Shown in pieces: positions 6,329 to 15,918 of a stretch of 64,000 nucleotides of DNA. Position 1 is the stretch's first letter. The number at the start of each line of letters is the position of its first letter. The DNA is from an uncultured Nocardioides sp. (GTDB lineage Bacteria > Actinomycetota > Actinomycetes > Propionibacteriales > Nocardioidaceae). The stretch covers positions 124,001 to 188,000 of the forward strand of contig NZ_CANLDB010000001.1 of the NCBI RefSeq assembly GCF_947489365.1, in the 5' to 3' direction. Under the pieces are notes generated by a model that made no database searches, was not told the DNA's origin, and worked only from the letters and a program-made list of their open reading frames with translations. Made by a program: the position numbers and the translations under genes.

Positions 6329-6330
6329 AC

Positions 6331-6700
6331 CGGGTCTCGACGACGCGCGCTCGCTGCGCTCGCGTGCTGCTCGACCAGCGTGGTGGTCAGGTGGTCGAGC
6401 AGCCGAGCCGCGCCAGCGGCTCCGCGTCGTCGAGACCGTGCGGGGCCGGGTCTCGACGACGCGCGCTCGCTGCGCTCGCGTGCTGCTCGACCAGCGTGGT
6501 GGTCAGGTGGTTGAGCAGCCGAGCCGCGCCAGCGGCTCCGCGTCGTCGAGACCGTGCGGGCCCGGGTCTCGACGACACGCGCTCACTGCGCTCGCGTGCT
6601 GCTCGACCAGCTGGTCCGACCCCGAGGCGCGTCGGCTCGACCACCTGATCCGACCCCGAGGCGCGTGCTGCTCGACCACCAGGACCGTGGGACCGGCGAC
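6331..6700. repeat. Tandem 116-bp hairpin-forming intergenic repeat
   Basis: The 372-bp gap has no gene. Two near-identical 116-bp units begin at 6331 and 6447, and a third, diverged and truncated unit begins at 6563. Each full unit starts GGTCTCGACGACGCG and ends with the reverse complement CGCGTCGTCGAGACC, and contains inner inverted repeats (CTGCTCGACCA...TGGTCGAGCAG, GAGCCGCGCCAGCGGCTC), so one unit can fold into a long branched hairpin. After 6600 a CTCGACCA...CCGACCCCGAGGCGCG motif is repeated twice. The core recurs inverted at 21067. It may also end transcription between the convergent flanking genes. Confidence 0.85.
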
Positions 6701-7282
6701 CTAGAACCGCCGGACGCCCGACTCCGTCACGGCGCCGGTGACGGCGCGGTCGTGGGGCTCGGCGGGCACGGCGCGGTCGAGCTCGTCCTCGTGCAGCAGC
6801 ACCCAGACCGGGGTGCCCCGTGGCACCCGGGCGAGCGCGCGGTCGTACGAGCCCCCGCCGCGACCCAGCCGCATCCCGGCGGCGTCGACAGCCAGGCCGG
6901 GGACGACCACGACGTCGCAGGTGGCGATGGCGTCGCGTCCGGCGCGCGCGGTCACCGGCTCCAGCAGCCCCCGGCCGGCCGGGGCGAGCGACGCGGGTCC
7001 GTCGTACGGCGCCCAGTCGAGGTCGCCGTCCGGTCGCAGCACCGGCAGCAGCACCCGCCGGTCCAGGTCGCGCAGGGCGTCGAGCAGCTCGGTGGTGCCG
7101 GGTTCGGAGCCGACCGACACGTACGCCGCGACCGACGCGGCCCGCGCCAGCTCCGGGGAGTCGAGCAGGTGAGCCGTGCGGGCCCGGGCCCCGGCGGTGA
7201 CCTCGGCGAGCGGCCGGCGGCGCCGGGCGGCGAGCAGCTGGTCGCGCAGACCGGTCTTGGCCACCGCCTGTGACGAACCCAT
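6701..7282 (-). CDS. 5-formyltetrahydrofolate cyclo-ligase
   Basis: This enzyme converts 5-formyl-THF to 5,10-methenyl-THF with ATP in cytoplasmic folate metabolism. The 193-residue protein has the family size, a basic N-terminal helix, and the signature MRLGRGGGSYDRALA near residue 140 that forms the nucleotide-binding loop. VVVPGLAVD just before it is also typical. It is divergent from the UDP-glucose pyrophosphorylase gene with only 22 bp between start codons. TAGGCT lies exactly six bases before the ATG, so the mRNA is probably leaderless. The pairing of 5-FCL with a UGP gene is conserved around the actinobacterial glp/glpR locus. Confidence 0.93.
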   Translation of the reverse strand: MGSSQAVAKTGLRDQLLAARRRRPLAEVTAGARARTAHLLDSPELARAASVAAYVSVGSEPGTTELLDALRDLDRRVLLPVLRPDGDLDWAPYDGPASLAPAGRGLLEPVTARAGRDAIATCDVVVVPGLAVDAAGMRLGRGGGSYDRALARVPRGTPVWVLLHEDELDRAVPAEPHDRAVTGAVTESGVRRF

Positions 7283-7288
7283 CAGCGC

Positions 7289-7298
7289 AGCCTACGAT
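7289..7298. promoter_or_regulatory. Overlapping divergent -10 elements
   Basis: On the minus strand TAGGCT (7294-7289) sits six bases before the 5-FCL ATG. On the plus strand TACGAT (7293-7298) sits six bases before the UGP ATG. The two hexamers share bases 7293-7294, so two polymerases could not open both promoters at once. Confidence 0.6.
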
Positions 7299-7304
7299 CG
7301 AAGC

Positions 7305-8678
7305 ATGGGCAGCCCCGGACTCATGCGCGCTCGCGAGAAGATGGCCGACGAGGGCGTCGACCCCGTCGCGATCGACGTGTTCTCGCACTACTACCGGCTC
7401 CTGGAGCACGGCGAGACCGGGATGATCCCCGAGTCCTCGATCGAGCCCCACGACATGGAGTCGCTGGCCGACGTCGAGGTCGACCCGGAGGCCGCCCGTG
7501 CGGCACTGGACGGCACCGCGGTCATCAAGCTCAACGGTGGTCTCGGCACGTCGATGGGCATGGACCGCGCGAAGTCGCTCCTGTGCGTCCGCAAGGGCCT
7601 GTCGTTCCTCGACATCATCGCCCGGCAGGTCCTGCACCTGCGGAAGACCACCGGCGCCCGGCTGCCGCTGATCTTCATGAACAGCTTCCGGACCTCGTCC
7701 GACACCATCGCCGCGCTGAGCCGGTACGACGAGCTCGCGGTGAAGGGCCTGCCGCTGGAGTTCCACCAGAACAAGGAGCCGAAGCTCCTCGTCCGCGACC
7801 TGCTGCCGGCCAGCCACCCCCGCAACCCCGACCTCGAGTGGTGCCCGCCGGGCCACGGTGACCTCTACACCGCGATGCTCGGCACCGGGCTGCTCGACCA
7901 GCTGCTCGACGCGGGCTACGAGCGGGTGTTCGTCTCCAACTCCGACAACCTCGGCGCCACCGCCGACCCCCGCGTGGCCGGGTGGTTCGCCGCGAGCGGC
8001 GCGCCGTTCGCGATCGAGGCGGTCCGCCGTACCCCCTCGGACCGCAAGGGCGGCCACTTCGCCCGGCGTACCTCCGACGGCCGGATCGTCCTGCGCGAGA
8101 CCGCCCAGACACGGGACGTCGACAAGGAGGCGCTCGCCGACCTGGAGCGGCACCGCTTCACCTCGACCAACAACCTGTGGTTCGACCTGCGGGCGATGAA
8201 GGACGAGATGCGTCGCCGCGACGGCATCCTGGGCCTGCCGCTGATCCGCAACGTCAAGCACCTCGACCCGACCGACCCGACGACGCCCGAGGTCGTGCAG
8301 ATCGAGACCGCCATGGGCGCGGCCATCGAGGTGTTCGAGGACGCCACCACCATCGAGGTCGGCCGGGACCGGTTCGTGCCGGTGAAGACCACCAACGACC
8401 TGCTCGTCCTCCGCTCGGACGTCTACACGCTCGGGCAGGACTTCGTCCTCGACCAGACCGCCGAGCAGATCCCGTACGTCGACCTCGACGGGCCGTACAA
8501 GACCGTCGACGCGTTCGCACAGCGCTTCCCCGACGGCGCGCCCTCGCTGGCCGAGGCGACGTCGTTGACGGTGCGCGGCGACGTGACCTTCGGCAAGGGC
8601 GTCAAGGTCGTCGGCGACGTCGAGGTCGAGGCCGAGAAGCAGCCCGAGCGGATCCCCGCGGACACGGTGCTGCGTTGA
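7305..8678 (+). CDS. UTP-glucose-1-phosphate uridylyltransferase (UDPGP family)
   Basis: Makes UDP-glucose from UTP and glucose-1-phosphate for cell-wall and storage polymers. The 457-residue protein belongs to the eukaryote-like UDPGP family rather than the short bacterial GalU family. It shows VIKLNGGLGTSMGMDRAKS (nucleotide loop, about residue 70), FMNSFRTSSDT, the FHQNKEPKLL block and GHGDLY. The C-terminus contains a left-handed helix-like run ending in VTFGKGVKVVGDVEVEA. I chose the ATG at 7305, not the earlier 7176 of the track, because the earlier start lies inside 5-FCL and TACGAT sits six bases before 7305. It overlaps the MoeA-like gene by TTGA. Confidence 0.93.
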   Translation: MGSPGLMRAREKMADEGVDPVAIDVFSHYYRLLEHGETGMIPESSIEPHDMESLADVEVDPEAARAALDGTAVIKLNGGLGTSMGMDRAKSLLCVRKGLSFLDIIARQVLHLRKTTGARLPLIFMNSFRTSSDTIAALSRYDELAVKGLPLEFHQNKEPKLLVRDLLPASHPRNPDLEWCPPGHGDLYTAMLGTGLLDQLLDAGYERVFVSNSDNLGATADPRVAGWFAASGAPFAIEAVRRTPSDRKGGHFARRTSDGRIVLRETAQTRDVDKEALADLERHRFTSTNNLWFDLRAMKDEMRRRDGILGLPLIRNVKHLDPTDPTTPEVVQIETAMGAAIEVFEDATTIEVGRDRFVPVKTTNDLLVLRSDVYTLGQDFVLDQTAEQIPYVDLDGPYKTVDAFAQRFPDGAPSLAEATSLTVRGDVTFGKGVKVVGDVEVEAEKQPERIPADTVLR

Positions 8679-9961
8679 CGACCTCACCCCTCGCGGGGTC
8701 GCCCGGCCCGACCCACGGTCCTGCGGGTGCCGACGACGGACCGATCACGGTCGAGCAGCTCCGCGACCACGTCCTGGGGACCGTCCAGCCGCTGCCCGCC
8801 CACGCCCAGCCCCTCATGGAGGCCCTCGGCCTCCCGGTGGCCGAGGACGTCCACTCCACGATCGCCCTGCCGGGCTTCGACAACTCCGCCATGGACGGGT
8901 ACGCCGTCGTCCACCGCGACGTCGCGACCGCCAGCGCCGAGTACCCCGTCCACCTGCCCGTGATCGGCGAGATCGGCGCCGGGCAGGCCCGCCTGACCGC
9001 GCTCGCCGAGGGCACGGCGGCCAAGATCATGACCGGCGCCCCGATCCCCGCCGGCTCGGACGCGGTCGTGCCCTACGAGTGGACCGACCGCGGTGAGTCG
9101 TCCGTCTGGATCTCCCAGGCCCCCGAGCCCGGTCAGCACGTCCGGGTCCGCGGCGACGACATCGCCGAGGGCGACCTGCTCGTCGAGGCCGGCACGGTCC
9201 TGACCCCGCGCCACCTGGGCCTGCTGGCCGCGGTGGGTCGCGACCGGGTCCGCTGCCGCCAGCGTCCCCGCGTCGTCGTCCTCTCGACCGGCTCGGAGCT
9301 CCGGGACGCCGGCCAGGAGCTCGGCCACGACTCGATCTACGACGGCAACTCCTACCTGCTCGCCGCCGCCGCCCGGGCGGCCGGGGCGATCGCCTACCGG
9401 GTCGGGATCGTCCCCGACGACACCGGCCGCTTCACCGAGGCGCTGGCCGACCAGCTCGTCCGCGCCGACGTGGTCGTCACCTCCGGCGGCGTCAGCATGG
9501 GCGACTTCGACGTCGTGAAGGAGGCGCTCCGCGGCATCGAGACCATGTGGTTCGGGCCCGTCGCGATGCAGCCCGGCAAGCCCCAGGGCTTCGGCACCGT
9601 CGGCGAGGACGCCACCCCGGTCTTCACGCTGCCGGGCAACCCGGTGTCGTCGTACCTGTCCTTCGAGGTCTTCGTGCTCCCCGCGCTGCGCAAGATGATG
9701 GGGATGACGCCCCACGTCCGGCCGTCGGTGCGGGCGCGGGTCACCCACGGCGTGACGTCGCCCCCGGGCCGTCGCCAGTTCCTGCGCGGCTCGTACGACG
9801 AGGACGCCGGCACGGCGTACGTCACGCCGATCGGCGGCTCCGGGTCGCACCTGCTCGGCAACCTCGCGGTCTCCGACGCGCTGATCGTCGTGCCCGAGGA
9901 GACCACCTCGCTCGACGCGGGGGAGACCGTCGAGGTCATCCGCATGGACGTGCCCTTCTGA
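8675..9961 (+). CDS. moeA: MoeA/gephyrin-like molybdopterin molybdenumtransferase, possible Glp
   Basis: MoeA inserts molybdate into adenylylated molybdopterin. The 428-residue protein has the expected domains: GFDNSAMDGYA near 70, MTGAPIPAGSDAVVPYE, the MogA-like fold with STGSELRDAG...YDGNSYLL, TSGGVSMGDFDVVKEAL, MQPGKPQGFG and LPGNPVSS, then a C-terminal beta barrel. The TTG start overlaps the upstream stop (TTGA). In Corynebacterium a MoeA paralogue in this same neighbourhood (5-FCL, UGP, MoeA-like, RimJ, GlpR) is Glp, which binds FtsZ. Here moaC and mogA follow directly, so a cofactor role, a division role or both are possible. Confidence 0.92.
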   Translation: MTTSPLAGSPGPTHGPAGADDGPITVEQLRDHVLGTVQPLPAHAQPLMEALGLPVAEDVHSTIALPGFDNSAMDGYAVVHRDVATASAEYPVHLPVIGEIGAGQARLTALAEGTAAKIMTGAPIPAGSDAVVPYEWTDRGESSVWISQAPEPGQHVRVRGDDIAEGDLLVEAGTVLTPRHLGLLAAVGRDRVRCRQRPRVVVLSTGSELRDAGQELGHDSIYDGNSYLLAAAARAAGAIAYRVGIVPDDTGRFTEALADQLVRADVVVTSGGVSMGDFDVVKEALRGIETMWFGPVAMQPGKPQGFGTVGEDATPVFTLPGNPVSSYLSFEVFVLPALRKMMGMTPHVRPSVRARVTHGVTSPPGRRQFLRGSYDEDAGTAYVTPIGGSGSHLLGNLAVSDALIVVPEETTSLDAGETVEVIRMDVPF

Positions 9962-10443
9962 TGGAGCCACGCCTGACCCACGTGGACGCCGCCGGCGCCG
10001 CCCGGATGGTCGACGTCTCCGACAAGGACGTCACGACGCGCACGGCCACCGCGTCGGGGCGGGTGCTGGTCTCGTCGACGGTCGTCGGGCTGCTCCGGGG
10101 CGAGGGCGTGCCGAAGGGCGACGCGCTCGCGGTCGCCCGCATCGCCGGCATCCAGGGCGCGAAGCTCACGCCCACGCTGATCCCGCTGTGCCACCCGCTG
10201 CCCGTCACCGGGGTGGTGGTGGACCTCGAGGTCGCCGACACCGACGACGGGGGAGCCGTGCTCATCTCGGCGACGGTGCGCACCACCGGGCGCACCGGGG
10301 TCGAGATGGAGGCCATGGCCGCCGTCGCCACCGCCGCGCTGACCGTCGTCGACATGGTCAAGGCCGTCGACAAGGGGGCCGTGATCACCGACGTCCGCGT
10401 CGAGGCGAAGAGCGGCGGACGGTCGGGGGACTGGACCCGATGA
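9961..10443 (+). CDS. moaC: Cyclic pyranopterin monophosphate synthase MoaC
   Basis: MoaC forms cPMP from the MoaA product in molybdopterin synthesis. The 160-residue protein is full length and shows MVDVSDK, IAGIQGAKLTPTLIPLCHPL, the TGVEMEAM motif and DMVKAVDKGA, all typical of the active site. Its ATG shares one base with the MoeA-like stop (TGATG) and its stop overlaps mogA (ATGA), so all three should be translated together. moaA is not in the window. Confidence 0.96.
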   Translation: MEPRLTHVDAAGAARMVDVSDKDVTTRTATASGRVLVSSTVVGLLRGEGVPKGDALAVARIAGIQGAKLTPTLIPLCHPLPVTGVVVDLEVADTDDGGAVLISATVRTTGRTGVEMEAMAAVATAALTVVDMVKAVDKGAVITDVRVEAKSGGRSGDWTR

Positions 10444-10934
10444 ACGCCCCGGGCCCCCACGGGCTGCCCGCCACCGTCGTGGTGGCCTCCAACCGCGCGG
10501 CCGCCGGCGTGTACGACGACACCACCGGTCCGCTGATCGTGGAGGCCCTGGAGGACCTGGGGTTCGCCGTGACCGGACCCGTCGTCCGCCCCGACGGCGA
10601 GCCGGTCGGCGCGGCCATCGCCGAGGCCGCCGCCGGAGGAGCCCGCGTCGTGCTCACCACCGGTGGGACCGGCCTGACCCCGACCGACCGCACCCCCGAG
10701 GTCACCCGCGCCCTGCTGGACGCCGAGGTGCCGGGCATCGCCGAGGCGATCCGCGCCGCCGGCGTCGCGAAGGGCGTGCCGACCGCGGTGCTGTCCCGCG
10801 GGCTCGCCGGCCTCGTCGGGCGCTGCCTGGTCGTCAACCTGCCCGGGTCGCGCGGCGGGGTGAAGGACGCCCTCGAGGTGCTGCGTCCCGTGCTCGTGCA
10901 CGCCGCCGAACAGGTCGTGGGGAGCGATCATTAG
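10440..10934 (+). CDS. mogA: MogA/MoaB family molybdopterin adenylyltransferase
   Basis: Adenylylates molybdopterin before metal insertion by MoeA. The 164-residue protein carries TTGGTGLTPTDRTPE (about residues 77-91), the pterin- and ATP-binding loop, and NLPGSRGGVKDAL near the end, both family hallmarks. The opening VVVASNRAAAGVYDDTTGP is also typical. It overlaps moaC by ATGA, and its TAG stop lies within the start of the GNAT gene. MogA and MoaB cannot be separated safely from sequence. Confidence 0.93.
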   Translation: MNAPGPHGLPATVVVASNRAAAGVYDDTTGPLIVEALEDLGFAVTGPVVRPDGEPVGAAIAEAAAGGARVVLTTGGTGLTPTDRTPEVTRALLDAEVPGIAEAIRAAGVAKGVPTAVLSRGLAGLVGRCLVVNLPGSRGGVKDALEVLRPVLVHAAEQVVGSDH

Positions 10935-11523
10935 CGGCCCCGTCCAGGCCTGGCCGGCCCGCCTCGTCGACGGCGAGCTCGTCCTGCGTCCGCTGTCGTA
11001 CGGCGACGCCAACGCCTGGCGCGAGGTCCGCCTGCGCAACCGGGCGTGGCTGCAGCCGTGGGACGCGACCCTGCCGCCCGGCGTCGAGCCCGGCCCGCGG
11101 ACCTTCCGCGGCCTGGTGTGGCGGATGAAGCGGGTGGCCGCCAACGGCCAGGGCCTGCCGTTCGCGATCGAGGTCGACGGGGTGTTCGCCGGGCAGGTGA
11201 CGGTCAGCAACATCGTCCGCGGGTCCGCGCAGATGGCGAACCTCGGGTACTGGATCGACCAGTCGGTCGCCGGGCGGGGCCTCATGCCCCGGGCGGTCGC
11301 GCTCGCGATCGACCACTGCTTCGCCCATGCCGGCCTCCACCGCGTGGAGATCGCCGTACGACCGGAGAACAGCAACTCCCTGCGTGTGGTCGAGAAGCTC
11401 GGCCTGCAGGAGGTGGGCTTCGCCCAGCGCTTCCTGCACATCGACGGGGCGTGGCGCGACCACCGGGTCTTCGCGATCACGACCGAGGAGTGCGACCGGC
11501 CCGTCCGGTCCCGGCTGCCCTGA
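10930..11523 (+). CDS. RimJ/RimL-like GNAT N-acetyltransferase with probable ATT start
   Basis: A 197-residue acetyltransferase using acetyl-CoA, possibly on protein N-termini as in RimJ/RimL. The ORF track begins only at 11116 (GTG, 135 aa), which would delete the first beta strand. The open frame continues upstream through ARLVDGELVLRPLSYGDANA, the normal GNAT beginning, to an ATT at 10930. No ATG, GTG or TTG is in frame before it, but GGGGAG lies about six bases upstream of the ATT. The acetyl-CoA loop is SVAGRGLMPRAV, with NSNSLRVVEKLGLQEVG after it. It overlaps mogA by five bases. RimJ is a regular neighbour in the glp/glpR locus. Confidence 0.83.
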   Translation: MSGPVQAWPARLVDGELVLRPLSYGDANAWREVRLRNRAWLQPWDATLPPGVEPGPRTFRGLVWRMKRVAANGQGLPFAIEVDGVFAGQVTVSNIVRGSAQMANLGYWIDQSVAGRGLMPRAVALAIDHCFAHAGLHRVEIAVRPENSNSLRVVEKLGLQEVGFAQRFLHIDGAWRDHRVFAITTEECDRPVRSRLP

Positions 11524-11640
11524 ACCGGACGTCGTCCGGCCCGACCTTGCGTGCTGCATGGATCTTTCGGTCCTACCGGGGCACGGTGGTCGATGGGCCC
11601 CCGACCGGGTGGCCCGTCGGAACGACAGAAGGAGCCATCC

Positions 11641-11787
11641 ATGCTCGCAACCATCCTGTGGATCATCGCCGTCGTGCTCGTCGTGGCGGGGATCCTCGCC
11701 ATCGTGCGCAAGCAGCTCGTGTGGGGCATCGTCCTGATCGTGGTCGGGCTGCTCGTCGGCCCCGGCGGCGTCAGCATCTTCGTCTAG
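11641..11787 (+). CDS. GPGG-motif small membrane protein
   Basis: A 48-residue hydrophobic peptide with two short membrane helices (ATILWIIAVVLVVAGILAIV and VWGIVLIVVGLLV) joined by RKQL, ending in GPGGVSIFV. This GPGG ending defines a family of small actinobacterial membrane proteins of unknown role. The ATG at 11641 is preceded by AAGGAG at seven bases. The longer 78-aa ORF in the track has no ribosome site and a non-membrane N-terminus. A strong hairpin follows. Confidence 0.85.
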   Translation: MLATILWIIAVVLVVAGILAIVRKQLVWGIVLIVVGLLVGPGGVSIFV

Positions 11788-11798
11788 ACAGCGCGGCG

Positions 11799-11837
11799 GT
11801 CGGGAAATCACTCCCGTCACACGAGTGATTTCCCGAC
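11799..11837. terminator. 15-bp stem hairpin
   Basis: GTCGGGAAATCACTC and its exact reverse complement enclose a nine-base loop, directly after the GPGG gene and before the promoter of the SepX/GlpR gene. There is no T-run. An intrinsic terminator or transcript-end hairpin is most likely. Confidence 0.65.
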
Positions 11838-11876
11838 ACACGCCTTGACATCCGTCCCAGGTCGGTCCGCCGCTCC

Positions 11877-11882
11877 TAGGGT
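11877..11882 (+). promoter_or_regulatory. -10 element of a leaderless promoter
   Basis: TAGGGT followed by CAGTAC and the GTG of the SepX/GlpR-like gene. No Shine-Dalgarno sequence is present. Confidence 0.55.
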
Positions 11883-11888
11883 CAGTAC

Positions 11889-12836
11889 GTGGACCTCAGC
11901 GCCGTCATCTTCGTAGCCCTGGCCGTGGCCTGGGCCGTCTACCTCGTCCCGAAGGCGCTGAAGCACCACGACGAGGTGGCGCGCACGCGCTCCGTCGACC
12001 GCTTCTCCGCCACGATGCGCACCCTCGCCCGCCGCGAGCCCGCCGTCGCCACCGGCGCGGCCAGTGCCTCGGCCGGCGGCCGCGTCGTCGTGACCCCCGG
12101 CCGGCCCGCGTCGGTCTCCGAGGTCACCACCAAGCCCCGGGGCGCCCGCGGCACGACCGTCGTCGAGGCGCCCGCGGACCCGCTGGCCGACCTCAGCCCC
12201 GAGCAGCGCCGCGCCCGCCGCGAGTCCGCGCGCGTCGCGGCCCGCCGCCGTCGTCGCGTGCTCGGCACCCTCCTGGTCGCGCTGCTGGCCGCGGTCGTGG
12301 TGGCCGCCGTCGGCGTCACCTCGTGGTGGCTCGTCGCCGCGCCCGGCGCCCTGATCGTCATGTGGCTCGTCGCGTGCCGCGCCATGGTCCGCGGTGAGCA
12401 CCGCGCCCGCGGCCTCGTGGTCCACACCGACGCCGCCGGCGACCCCGTCTCGGTGGAGGAGGTCGACGAGGGCGTGACGCTGCTCGAGGACGTGCCCCCG
12501 TCGTACGACGTGGAGCGGAGCGAGGACGGGTTCGACGAGGTCGGTCCCGCCGCCGAGACCGCCAGCATGGACGCGTCCGAGGTCGACCCCGAGCTCTGGG
12601 AGCCGCGGCCGGTGACCCTCCCGACGTACGTCGGCAAGGAGATCGCCCCCCTGCGCCACGCCAAGATGCTGCACAAGAACGAGAAGGGCGTCTGGACCTC
12701 CGGCCACGACACGTCCGACAGCATCATGGCCCAGGACGCCCGCGCCACCGAGCGCGAGACCAGCCGCACCAGGCCCCGCGAGGAGCCCGCCGCCGAGCGG
12801 ACCACCTACTCCGGTGAGCGGGCCGTCGGCTCCTGA
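11889..12836 (+). CDS. SepX/GlpR-like divisome membrane protein
   Basis: A 315-residue protein starting with a membrane helix (SAVIFVALAVAWAVYLVP) followed by a basic arginine-rich stretch with RFSATMRTLARRE. This is the signature of the actinobacterial SepX/GlpR family: SepX supports FtsZ rings in Streptomyces, and GlpR is the membrane receptor of the gephyrin-like Glp in Corynebacterium. Two further membrane helices lie at about 120-160 (LLVALLAAVVVAAVGV, LVAAPGALIVMWLVAC), and the C-terminal half is acidic and probably disordered. The MoeA-like gene upstream is the expected partner. Assignment rests on N-terminal pattern and gene order. Confidence 0.8.
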   Translation: MDLSAVIFVALAVAWAVYLVPKALKHHDEVARTRSVDRFSATMRTLARREPAVATGAASASAGGRVVVTPGRPASVSEVTTKPRGARGTTVVEAPADPLADLSPEQRRARRESARVAARRRRRVLGTLLVALLAAVVVAAVGVTSWWLVAAPGALIVMWLVACRAMVRGEHRARGLVVHTDAAGDPVSVEEVDEGVTLLEDVPPSYDVERSEDGFDEVGPAAETASMDASEVDPELWEPRPVTLPTYVGKEIAPLRHAKMLHKNEKGVWTSGHDTSDSIMAQDARATERETSRTRPREEPAAERTTYSGERAVGS

Positions 12837-13533: not shown

Positions 13534-15918
13534 TCAGCCGACGGTGGCCGGGACGTCGCCGTACAGGGTGGTGCGCTGGCGCAGGGGTCGACCCGCCTCG
13601 GCCGCGATCGCGGCGAGGTCGTCGGGGGTGAGGCCCTGGCCGTGGCTGGCGCCGGCGGCGCGGCTGATGTTCTCGTCCATCAGCGTGCCGCCGAGGTCGT
13701 CGACCCCCGCGGCGAGCAGCTGCCGGGTCCCGACCCTGCCGAGCTTCACCCACGAGGCCTGCACGTGGCGGATGTCGTCGGCGTACGCGATGCGGGCGAC
13801 CGCGTGCACCAGGACCGTCTCGCGCCACGTGGGGCCGCGGCGGGCGCCGCGCTTGAGGTAGATCGGCGCCGCCATGTGCACGAACGGCAGGCCCACGAAC
13901 TCCGTGAAGCCGCCGGTCTCGCGCTGCACCGCCCGTGTCCGCAGCAGGTGCCTCACCCAGTGGTGGGGCCGCTCGACGGAGCCGAACATCATCGTCACGT
14001 TCGACCTCAGCCCCACGGAGTGGGCGACGCGGTGGACCTCGAGCCACTCCTCGGTGGTGATCTTGTCGGGGCAGAGCACCGCGCGGACCTCGTCGTCGAG
14101 GATCTCCGCGGCCGTGCCCGGCAGCGAGCGGAGCCCGGCCTCCTTGAGGCGGAGCAGGTAGCTCTCCAGCGGCTCCTCGAGTCGCCGCGAGCCCTCCATC
14201 ACCTCGAGGGCGGTGAACCCGTGGATGTGCATGTCCGGCACCCGCTCGTGGACCGCCTGGGCGACCTCGACGTAGAAGTTGCCGTCGAACTTCGGGTGGA
14301 TGCCGCCCTGCAGGCACACCTCCGTGGCGCCGAGGCCCCAGGCCTCCTCGCTGCGGTCGGCGACCTCCTCCAGCGTCAGCAGGTACGGCGCCCCGCGCAG
14401 GTTGAGCGACAGCGGACCCTTCGAGAACCCGCAGAAGGTGCACTTGAAGGTGCACACGTTGGTGTAGTTGATGTTCCGGTTCACCACGAAGGTGACCTCG
14501 TCGCCGACCACCCGCCGCCGGATCGCGTCGGCCACCTCGGCGACGGCGGCGACCTCGGTCCCGCGCGCCGCGAACAGCGCCTCGAGCTCCTCGGCGCCCG
14601 CCTCCTGGCCCGCCCGGACGCCGTCCAGCACCTCGCCGATCCGGCCGCGGACCACGCCGCCGGTCGACGAGCGACCGGCGCGCAGCGTCGCCGGGTCGGT
14701 GCCGGACCCGGAGAACCACGACGTGGAGCGGCGTCCGACCTGGATCACCTCGGCGCCGGTGCCGACGTTGGCGGCGTCCGCGTGGCGCTCGGGCCACATC
14801 GCGCCCGGGTCGTCGCGGCCCAGCAGGTCGGCGTCGGCGCGGTCGAGCACCGGGAACCGCAGGGCCTCGTCGAGCCAGCGCTCCGGCTCCGCGGCGTACG
14901 TCGGGTAGACGGTCAGGCGCGGGGCGAGCTCGTGGCCGGCGGCCTCGGTGGCGTCGCGCAGGACGTCGAGGGACGGCCAGGGCCGCTCGGGGTTCACGTG
15001 GTCGGCGGTCACGGGGGAGACGCCGCCCCAGTCGTCGATGCCGGCCGCGAGCAGACCGGCGAGGTCCTCGGGCTCCGACAGGTTCGGCGGCGCCTGCACG
15101 TGGACGTCGTCCGGCAGCACGAGCCGGGCCAGGGCGATGGCGCGCAGGTGGTCCTCGGGCGGGCACGGCGGGGCCGCGCGCATCGCCGTCCCGGGCTTGG
15201 GCAGGAAGTTCTGGACGATCACCTCCTGCACGTGGCCGTGGGCGTCGTGGGACTCCGCGATCGCGCGCAGCGCCTCGACCCGGTCGGCCTCGGTCTCGCC
15301 GATGCCGACGAGGATCCCGGTGGTGAAGGGGATGGCCAGCTCGCCGGCGGCGTCCAGGGTGGCCAGGCGGCGGGCGGGCACCTTGTCGGGCGCCCCGCGG
15401 TGCGCGGCCAGGTCGGGTCGGAGGCTCTCGATCATCATCCCCTGCGAGGCGCTGGAGCGGCGCAGGGTCGCGAGGTCGGCTGCGTCGAGCGCGCCGGCGT
15501 TCGCGTGGGGCAGGAGGCCGGTCTCCGCGAGGACCAGGGCGGTGGCCTCGGCGAGGTAGTCGACCGTCGTCGCGTGGCCGCGCGCGGCGAGCCACTCGGC
15601 CGCGGCCGGGTAGCGGAGCTCGGGGGCCTCCCCGAGGGTGAACAGCGCCTCGTGGCAGCCCGCGGCCGCGCCCTGCTCCGCGATCGCGAGGACCTCGCCG
15701 GGCTCCAGGTACGGCGCGTGCGCGGTGCGCGGCGACTCCGCGAAGGTGCAGTAGCCGCAGCGGTCCCGGCACAGCTTGGTCAGGGGGATGAAGACCTTGG
15801 GGGAGTAGGTCACCCGCGTGGAGAACAGGGCGTCGCGCCGGGCGGCGGCCATCGCGAGGAGCTCGTGGGTCGGCAGCGCGGTGAGCGCGGTGACCTCGGT
15901 CTTCGGGAGCGACGTCAT
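13534..15918 (-). CDS. fbiC: FbiC, bifunctional FO synthase (CofG-CofH fusion)
   Basis: Makes 7,8-didemethyl-8-hydroxy-5-deazariboflavin (FO), the chromophore of coenzyme F420, from a pyrimidine intermediate and tyrosine. The 794-residue protein has two radical SAM halves. The CofG half has LCRDRCGYC (about residue 50) and the CofH half has NVCTFKCTFCGFSKG (about 500), each giving a CxxxCxxC iron-sulfur site. The length matches actinobacterial FbiC. GATACT lies six bases before the ATG. Five F420- or flavin-type enzymes elsewhere in the window are potential users of the product. Confidence 0.96.
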   Translation of the reverse strand: MTSLPKTEVTALTALPTHELLAMAAARRDALFSTRVTYSPKVFIPLTKLCRDRCGYCTFAESPRTAHAPYLEPGEVLAIAEQGAAAGCHEALFTLGEAPELRYPAAAEWLAARGHATTVDYLAEATALVLAETGLLPHANAGALDAADLATLRRSSASQGMMIESLRPDLAAHRGAPDKVPARRLATLDAAGELAIPFTTGILVGIGETEADRVEALRAIAESHDAHGHVQEVIVQNFLPKPGTAMRAAPPCPPEDHLRAIALARLVLPDDVHVQAPPNLSEPEDLAGLLAAGIDDWGGVSPVTADHVNPERPWPSLDVLRDATEAAGHELAPRLTVYPTYAAEPERWLDEALRFPVLDRADADLLGRDDPGAMWPERHADAANVGTGAEVIQVGRRSTSWFSGSGTDPATLRAGRSSTGGVVRGRIGEVLDGVRAGQEAGAEELEALFAARGTEVAAVAEVADAIRRRVVGDEVTFVVNRNINYTNVCTFKCTFCGFSKGPLSLNLRGAPYLLTLEEVADRSEEAWGLGATEVCLQGGIHPKFDGNFYVEVAQAVHERVPDMHIHGFTALEVMEGSRRLEEPLESYLLRLKEAGLRSLPGTAAEILDDEVRAVLCPDKITTEEWLEVHRVAHSVGLRSNVTMMFGSVERPHHWVRHLLRTRAVQRETGGFTEFVGLPFVHMAAPIYLKRGARRGPTWRETVLVHAVARIAYADDIRHVQASWVKLGRVGTRQLLAAGVDDLGGTLMDENISRAAGASHGQGLTPDDLAAIAAEAGRPLRQRTTLYGDVPATVG

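Follow-up and report, generated by a model that had tools for sequence, protein, structure and literature searches.

Here we describe a comparative analysis of a division and cofactor locus of an uncultured Nocardioides sp. (assembly GCF_947489365.1), located at positions 6701-12836 of a 64,000-nucleotide stretch of contig NZ_CANLDB010000001.1; this whole stretch is called the window, and all coordinates refer to it. The locus encodes a MoeA-like, gephyrin-like protein, designated MoeA/Glp, and the divisome membrane protein SepX/GlpR. Its gene order is 5-formyltetrahydrofolate cyclo-ligase (5-FCL) on the minus strand, followed on the plus strand by UTP-glucose-1-phosphate uridylyltransferase (UGP), moeA, moaC, mogA, a rimJ-like gene, a gene for a small membrane protein with GPGG motif and sepX/glpR, after which a tRNA-Ala gene is found. 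An earlier note on this DNA had given this order, and profile matches placed every gene named there exactly as stated; the GPGG gene is a member of the locus which it had not mentioned. The moeA gene (8675-9961, TTG start) overlaps that of UGP by 4 bp and moaC (9961-10443, cyclic pyranopterin monophosphate synthase, PF01967 and TIGR00581 over their cut-offs) by 1 bp, while moaC overlaps the mogA-like molybdopterin adenylyltransferase gene (10440-10934, PF00994 90.2 bits, TIGR00177 101 bits) by 4 bp. These junctions agree with the one- to four-base overlaps described before, and that of mogA and rimJ amounts to 5 bp if the latter gene starts at ATT 10930. The SepX/GlpR gene (11889-12836, plus strand, NF050099 SepX_GlpR_2 235.8 bits, cut-off 150) lies 1.9 kb downstream of moeA.

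MoeA/Glp reached 573.7 bits with the NF045515 Glp_gephyrin model (cut-off 475) and 480.7 bits with NF050098 MoeA_actino, which is under the cut-off of 560 that was missed also by a canonical MoeA encoded outside such a locus (502.1 bits). The PDB entry closest to it in sequence is 8bve, the Glp of Corynebacterium glutamicum, and its closest named MoeA is that of Nocardioides sp. CFH 31398 (91% identity). In the tree it falls into a 76-row clade (SH-aLRT 99) together with C. glutamicum Glp and nearly all in-locus Glps, a clade which takes in five non-locus MoeA rows as well. With the NCBIfam models for Glp and for SepX/GlpR both over cut-off, the assignment of the locus to the Glp-GlpR type made in the earlier note holds, and so does its remark that the cofactor motifs are kept: FDNSAMDGYAV, TSGGVSMGDFD, MQPGKP and LPGNPVS are present, and the catalytic residues of E. 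coli MoeA (D59, T100, D142, E188 and D228) are conserved along with the PGNP motif. From 28 scored sites, defined as positions conserved in at least 95% of enzyme-type MoeAs (E. coli MoeA numbering), 27 are intact in the Nocardioides protein versus 19 in C. glutamicum Glp, where D228, the Mg-binding catalytic Asp of E. coli MoeA (PMC9458074), is among those lost. In the literature, Glp is a repurposed duplicate, present in genomes with at least two copies and having a poorly conserved active site (PMC10522489, PMC11733289); the protein studied here is of the Glp-GlpR kind without these two traits, the second copy and the dead active site.

The genome (4.47 Mb, completeness 100) contains a single match to MoeA_N (PF03453), which is the MoeA/Glp of the locus, and its PF00994 matches are MoeA, MogA and one CinA only. 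The PF00994 match on C4, considered as a second MoeA elsewhere, is this CinA. The paralogue count proposed earlier as a check is thus one, and no second MoeA was found in the genome, with FtsZ-binding residues or otherwise. MoaE is encoded, together with seven PF20256 stretches of molybdoenzymes of the xanthine dehydrogenase type and four PF00384 matches, of which one or more are probably NuoG; therefore the cofactor is most likely made and used. As judged from its residues, MoeA/Glp would be the only molybdenum insertase of this organism, and a single MoeA was found in 20 of the 25 sampled Nocardioides genomes.

For the survey, we used 80 genomes of Actinomycetes, about half with one MoeA and about half with more, which form a stratified and not a random sample; every MoeA was taken with its flanks, and degenerate, same-family and named cases were added later. 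A frame artefact (G114.L061.2695) and row L179 were left out, and genome G202 was reclassified for its second MoeA. The active-site scores of Glps encoded in such loci have a bimodal distribution, with one group at 26-28 and the other at 22 or fewer out of 28. Among the 97 glp loci in which the active site was compared with the presence of moaC/mogA, all 73 Glps accompanied by these genes are intact, and 23 of 24 Glps without them are decayed. In genomes that make the cofactor and have no MoeA other than Glp, this protein is always intact (42/42), and every decayed Glp belongs to a genome with another MoeA or without the cofactor pathway. At least 12 genomes with an intact Glp as sole copy are assembled into one contig and encode MoaE, so that hidden MoeA copies do not account for the pattern. 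With kinship ignored, Fisher p values of 2e-21 and 1e-8 were obtained for these associations. The published rule of two copies and a dead site fits the sampled mycobacteria-like loci and fails for the Nocardioides genome studied and most of its relatives.

Some other arrangements were noticed as well. In three Nocardioides loci (L064, L065 and L076) the in-locus MoeA is about 41% identical to the MoeA/Glp studied here and does not belong to the Glp clade; glpR has been kept, and the genomes encode another MoeA at a different place. A further locus (L276, genome G020) resembles them by profile score alone, with no tree placement. Four loci (L105, L096, L094 and L095, in G029, G050, G080 and G065, respectively) carry two divergent MoeA-like genes side by side, and each of these genomes has an intact in-locus Glp as well.

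Seven genomes from five families (f2, f8, f13, f16 and f26) have no MoaE, and all seven have kept a decayed Glp, encoded in a MoeA-rimJ-glpR unit that mostly includes 5-FCL; each has exactly one MoeA-like gene, except for G100 with two. Among three decayed Glps from one genus, the only one that was measurable, dN/dS (the ratio of nonsynonymous to synonymous substitution rates) was 0.43-0.46 by a crude count-based estimate on high-GC genes, a value comparable to that of intact pairs of similar divergence. The control family f23 is devoid of a glp locus, and there MoeA has been lost from the genomes that lost MoaE. Genus g9, from the family of the studied genome, includes both states: in four genomes (G118, G234, G279 and G319) the Glp encoded beside glpR is decayed and an intact MoeA is found together with moaC/mogA at another place, and four (G059, G127, G250 and G272) have the intact unit. 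That a decayed Glp stays with rimJ and glpR after loss of the pathway therefore points to a second job of Glp outside Corynebacteriales too, and a purely enzymatic role there would hardly account for these patterns.

The putative partner, SepX/GlpR, has three hydrophobic (transmembrane) segments, two disordered cytoplasmic regions and a C-terminal tail reading ERAVGS. The isoelectric points of the disordered regions are 11.9 and 4.65, in reversed order as compared with C. glutamicum (4.05 and 10.87). Among 79 GlpR proteins, the terminal tail follows the strict pattern RRA[VAS][GN][DE]-COOH in 62, and a PTYV segment (WxPxPxxLPTYVxK) is found in 47; both are possible docking motifs. The sepX gene is reported not to lie near known divisome genes, and a partner still to be identified has been proposed for its product (PMC8748795). 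The adjacent MoeA/Glp is an obvious candidate for this partner in Streptomyces.

Regarding the order of events, quick trees nest decayed Glps, that of C. glutamicum included, among intact MoeAs of such loci and imply four changes or more; the placement of some long branches in them, for example G028 and G076, is unsure. A scan of the genome collection revealed 25 loci, mostly from Acidimicrobiia, in which a GlpR-like protein with three transmembrane segments is encoded just downstream of moeA and moaC. These proteins were matched by our own profile with E values from 1e-11 to 1e-20, and six of them tested on the NCBI SepX/GlpR model gave 25-47 bits, under the curated cut-offs. One Acidimicrobiia locus (L228), read gene by gene, has the order galU-moeA-moaA-moaC-glpR-like, and MoeA is intact in the GlpR-like loci of this group outside Actinomycetes (L207-L244, mostly metagenome-assembled genomes of Acidimicrobiia). 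Because decayed Glps nest among intact ones and because of the Acidimicrobiia gene order, it seems that glpR arose next to an operon for cofactor synthesis, and that moaC/mogA are ancestral neighbours which the locus has lost in Corynebacteriales. The earlier note had regarded moaC and mogA as inserted in Nocardioides, and this polarity is to be reversed.

On comparative grounds, we consider the best-supported reading, and a rather probable one, to be that a single protein has two jobs, those of molybdenum insertase and of septal scaffold for SepX/GlpR. The moeA gene would be translationally coupled to moaC and mogA, and the gene of the septal membrane protein SepX/GlpR lies close by. It would insert molybdate into adenylylated molybdopterin (MPT-AMP) and thereby finish the molybdenum cofactor, since it has a complete active site and is the genome's only MoeA, and it would also serve SepX/GlpR as a septal scaffold, like its enzyme-dead corynebacterial relative. 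The bifunctional state would be ancestral in Actinomycetes, while Corynebacteriales and several other lineages would later have narrowed Glp to division only, after the cofactor step had passed to a second MoeA, with moaC/mogA at another place, or after the pathway itself had disappeared. In the wider form of this proposal, to which we give slightly less than an even chance, most Actinomycetes, the Nocardioides studied among them, have one protein serving as molybdenum insertase and as SepX/GlpR-docked divisome scaffold, the corynebacterial Glp is secondarily dead, and SepX/GlpR arose in a galU-moeA-moaA-moaC-glpR operon before Acidimicrobiia and Actinomycetes split; if so, a link between division and the state of the cofactor would be conceivable in principle. 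That one protein might serve both roles had been suggested in the earlier note; the suggestion is strengthened by the intact sole copies and by the seven Glps retained with glpR, and its FtsZ-docking part is left without residue support.

Several observations weigh against the two-job reading. The FtsZ-binding hairpin of C. glutamicum Glp, LMRDAETQDYL (360-370), is replaced by YDEDAGTAYV in the Nocardioides protein, and the FtsZ contacts L343, L360, M361, R362, Y369, L370 and F414 are conserved neither here nor in most intact Glps; the contact V338 is conserved in MoeA/Glp and mostly so in intact Glps. Of the Pro-rich hinges, the first reads QPLP and the second RQRPR, versus PRPR in most Glps; in place of the hinge-2 proline, which 93-100% of Glps have, this protein carries Gln196. 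A monomer predicted with AlphaFold2 (AF2) is closed-like, with a TM-score of 0.84 to Cnx1E versus 0.70-0.73 to open Glp structures (0.73 to 8bve). A kinship-aware test found about four independent pairs, all concordant but too few (p = 0.125). Three Nocardioides genomes (G002, G014 and G074) have a MoeA from outside the Glp clade in the slot of the locus, with glpR retained, and one genome (G146) lost both MoaE and MoeA though its family relative has a glp locus. An enzyme-type control modelled likewise is also closed-like and only slightly different (0.69 to 8bve and 0.85 to Cnx1E), and the predicted monomer is thus not decisive as an indicator of the open or closed state. FtsZ-docking residues were rejected as a shared Glp trait, being unconserved beyond the mycobacteria-like group, and a Glp-specific conserved surface was given up as well, since the handful of columns separating Glps from enzyme-type MoeAs is too few for an interface claim. 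Direct docking to FtsZ is the least certain step of the two-job reading and, because the hairpin is unconserved and the predicted monomer closed-like, may be an addition specific to Corynebacteriales, with GlpR as the older partner.

The same facts may be read in favour of a plain MoeA enzyme that makes cofactor only, with its place beside sepX/glpR being inherited synteny and the divisome role acquired later, in Corynebacteriales, along with the FtsZ hairpin. The active site is intact in a sole copy, the hairpin is confined to the mycobacteria-like group, the AF2 model is closed-like, and SepX of Streptomyces was not found to bind FtsZ, its link to a divisome partner being unknown (PMC8748795). 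However, the seven pathway-less genomes outside the mycobacteria-like group keep a decayed Glp by glpR, and dN/dS, where it was measured, is below 1; the family of the studied genome likewise has members in which Glp has decayed and glpR has stayed, and a pure enzyme would be expected to vanish, as in family f23; we regard this explanation as rather unlikely. The scenario known from publications, in which Glp is an ancient actinobacterial duplicate without catalysis, an inactive scaffold, and the cofactor comes from another MoeA, agrees with the copy number of at least two and the low active-site conservation reported for Glp (PMC11733289, PMC10522489), but is contradicted already in the Nocardioides genome studied, which has no second MoeA, encodes MoaE and molybdoenzymes and keeps an intact active site, and it sits badly with the prevalence of single copies among sampled Nocardioides; for this genome we hold it to be very improbable.

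As for the remaining features, the divergent 5-FCL gene (6701-7282) flanks the locus and was matched by PF01812 (125.5 bits) and TIGR02727 (127.2 bits). Upstream, between it and a large open reading frame, a tandem 116-bp repeat rich in inverted repeats occupies 6330-6687, with copies at 6330 and 6446 (98% identical) and a partial third at 6562. The UGP gene (7305-8678) encodes a UDPGP-type enzyme (PF01704, 385.7 bits), where GalU is found in a mycobacteria-like locus (L101) and in the Acidimicrobiia locus L228; as judged from these families, the slot is a case of in-place replacement by a different family. The RimJ-like GNAT acetyltransferase (10930-11523, start approximate, PF13302 75.6 bits) has no in-frame ATG, GTG or TTG in its start region (10918-10960), and its frame opens at ATT 10930 over the mogA stop TAG. 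In the relatives' junctions TTG or CTG is at the same position overlapping the mogA stop, and L170 has likewise ATT, which suggests that the rimJ-like gene starts by translational coupling. The GPGG-motif protein of 48 aa (11641-11787) gave 81.3 bits with NF040511 (cut-off 33). Between its gene and glpR lies a perfect 15-bp inverted repeat with a 9-nt spacer (11799-11837), which is shared with the nearest relative, L176, and was absent from all other Nocardioides loci that were checked; it has no T-tract, and a promoter/terminator scan yielded nothing. Just downstream of the locus, on the opposite strand, a bifunctional CofGH (FbiC) of coenzyme F420 biosynthesis is encoded at 13534-15918 (1035.5 bits).

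Compared with known systems, the arrangement is opposite to the published one: the copy is sole, the active site is kept, and decay is seen only where the enzyme is not needed. The Nocardioides locus shares with C. glutamicum Glp-GlpR (Cgl0883/Cgl0885; 8bve, 8bvf) the Glp clade, the order 5-FCL/uridylyltransferase-glp-rimJ-glpR, a GlpR with three transmembrane segments and two oppositely charged disordered regions, and a conserved FtsZ tail, in this genome the standard C-terminal sequence DDDLDVPDFLK, whereas it differs in having Glp as the only MoeA, with an intact site, without hairpin residues and with moaC/mogA in the unit, and in the charge order of GlpR. With E. coli MoeA (1g8l/1fc5), Cnx1E and gephyrin E the protein has in common the catalytic residues, PGNP, the fold and the closed-like predicted monomer, but, unlike these molybdenum insertases, it obtains a better score with the Glp model than with the MoeA model, and its gene is in linkage with rimJ and sepX/glpR. 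The orthologous membrane partner in Streptomyces venezuelae is SepX (vnz_14865), septal and with three transmembrane segments, although in Streptomyces a second, divergent MoeA is present. Mammalian gephyrin is a precedent for molybdenum insertase and membrane-receptor scaffold in one protein, yet of independent origin, with an unrelated receptor-binding site and partners, and the Nocardioides MogA is encoded by a separate gene. Bacterial Glp is therewith a candidate for a true moonlighting protein like gephyrin, a question directly testable in single-copy species.

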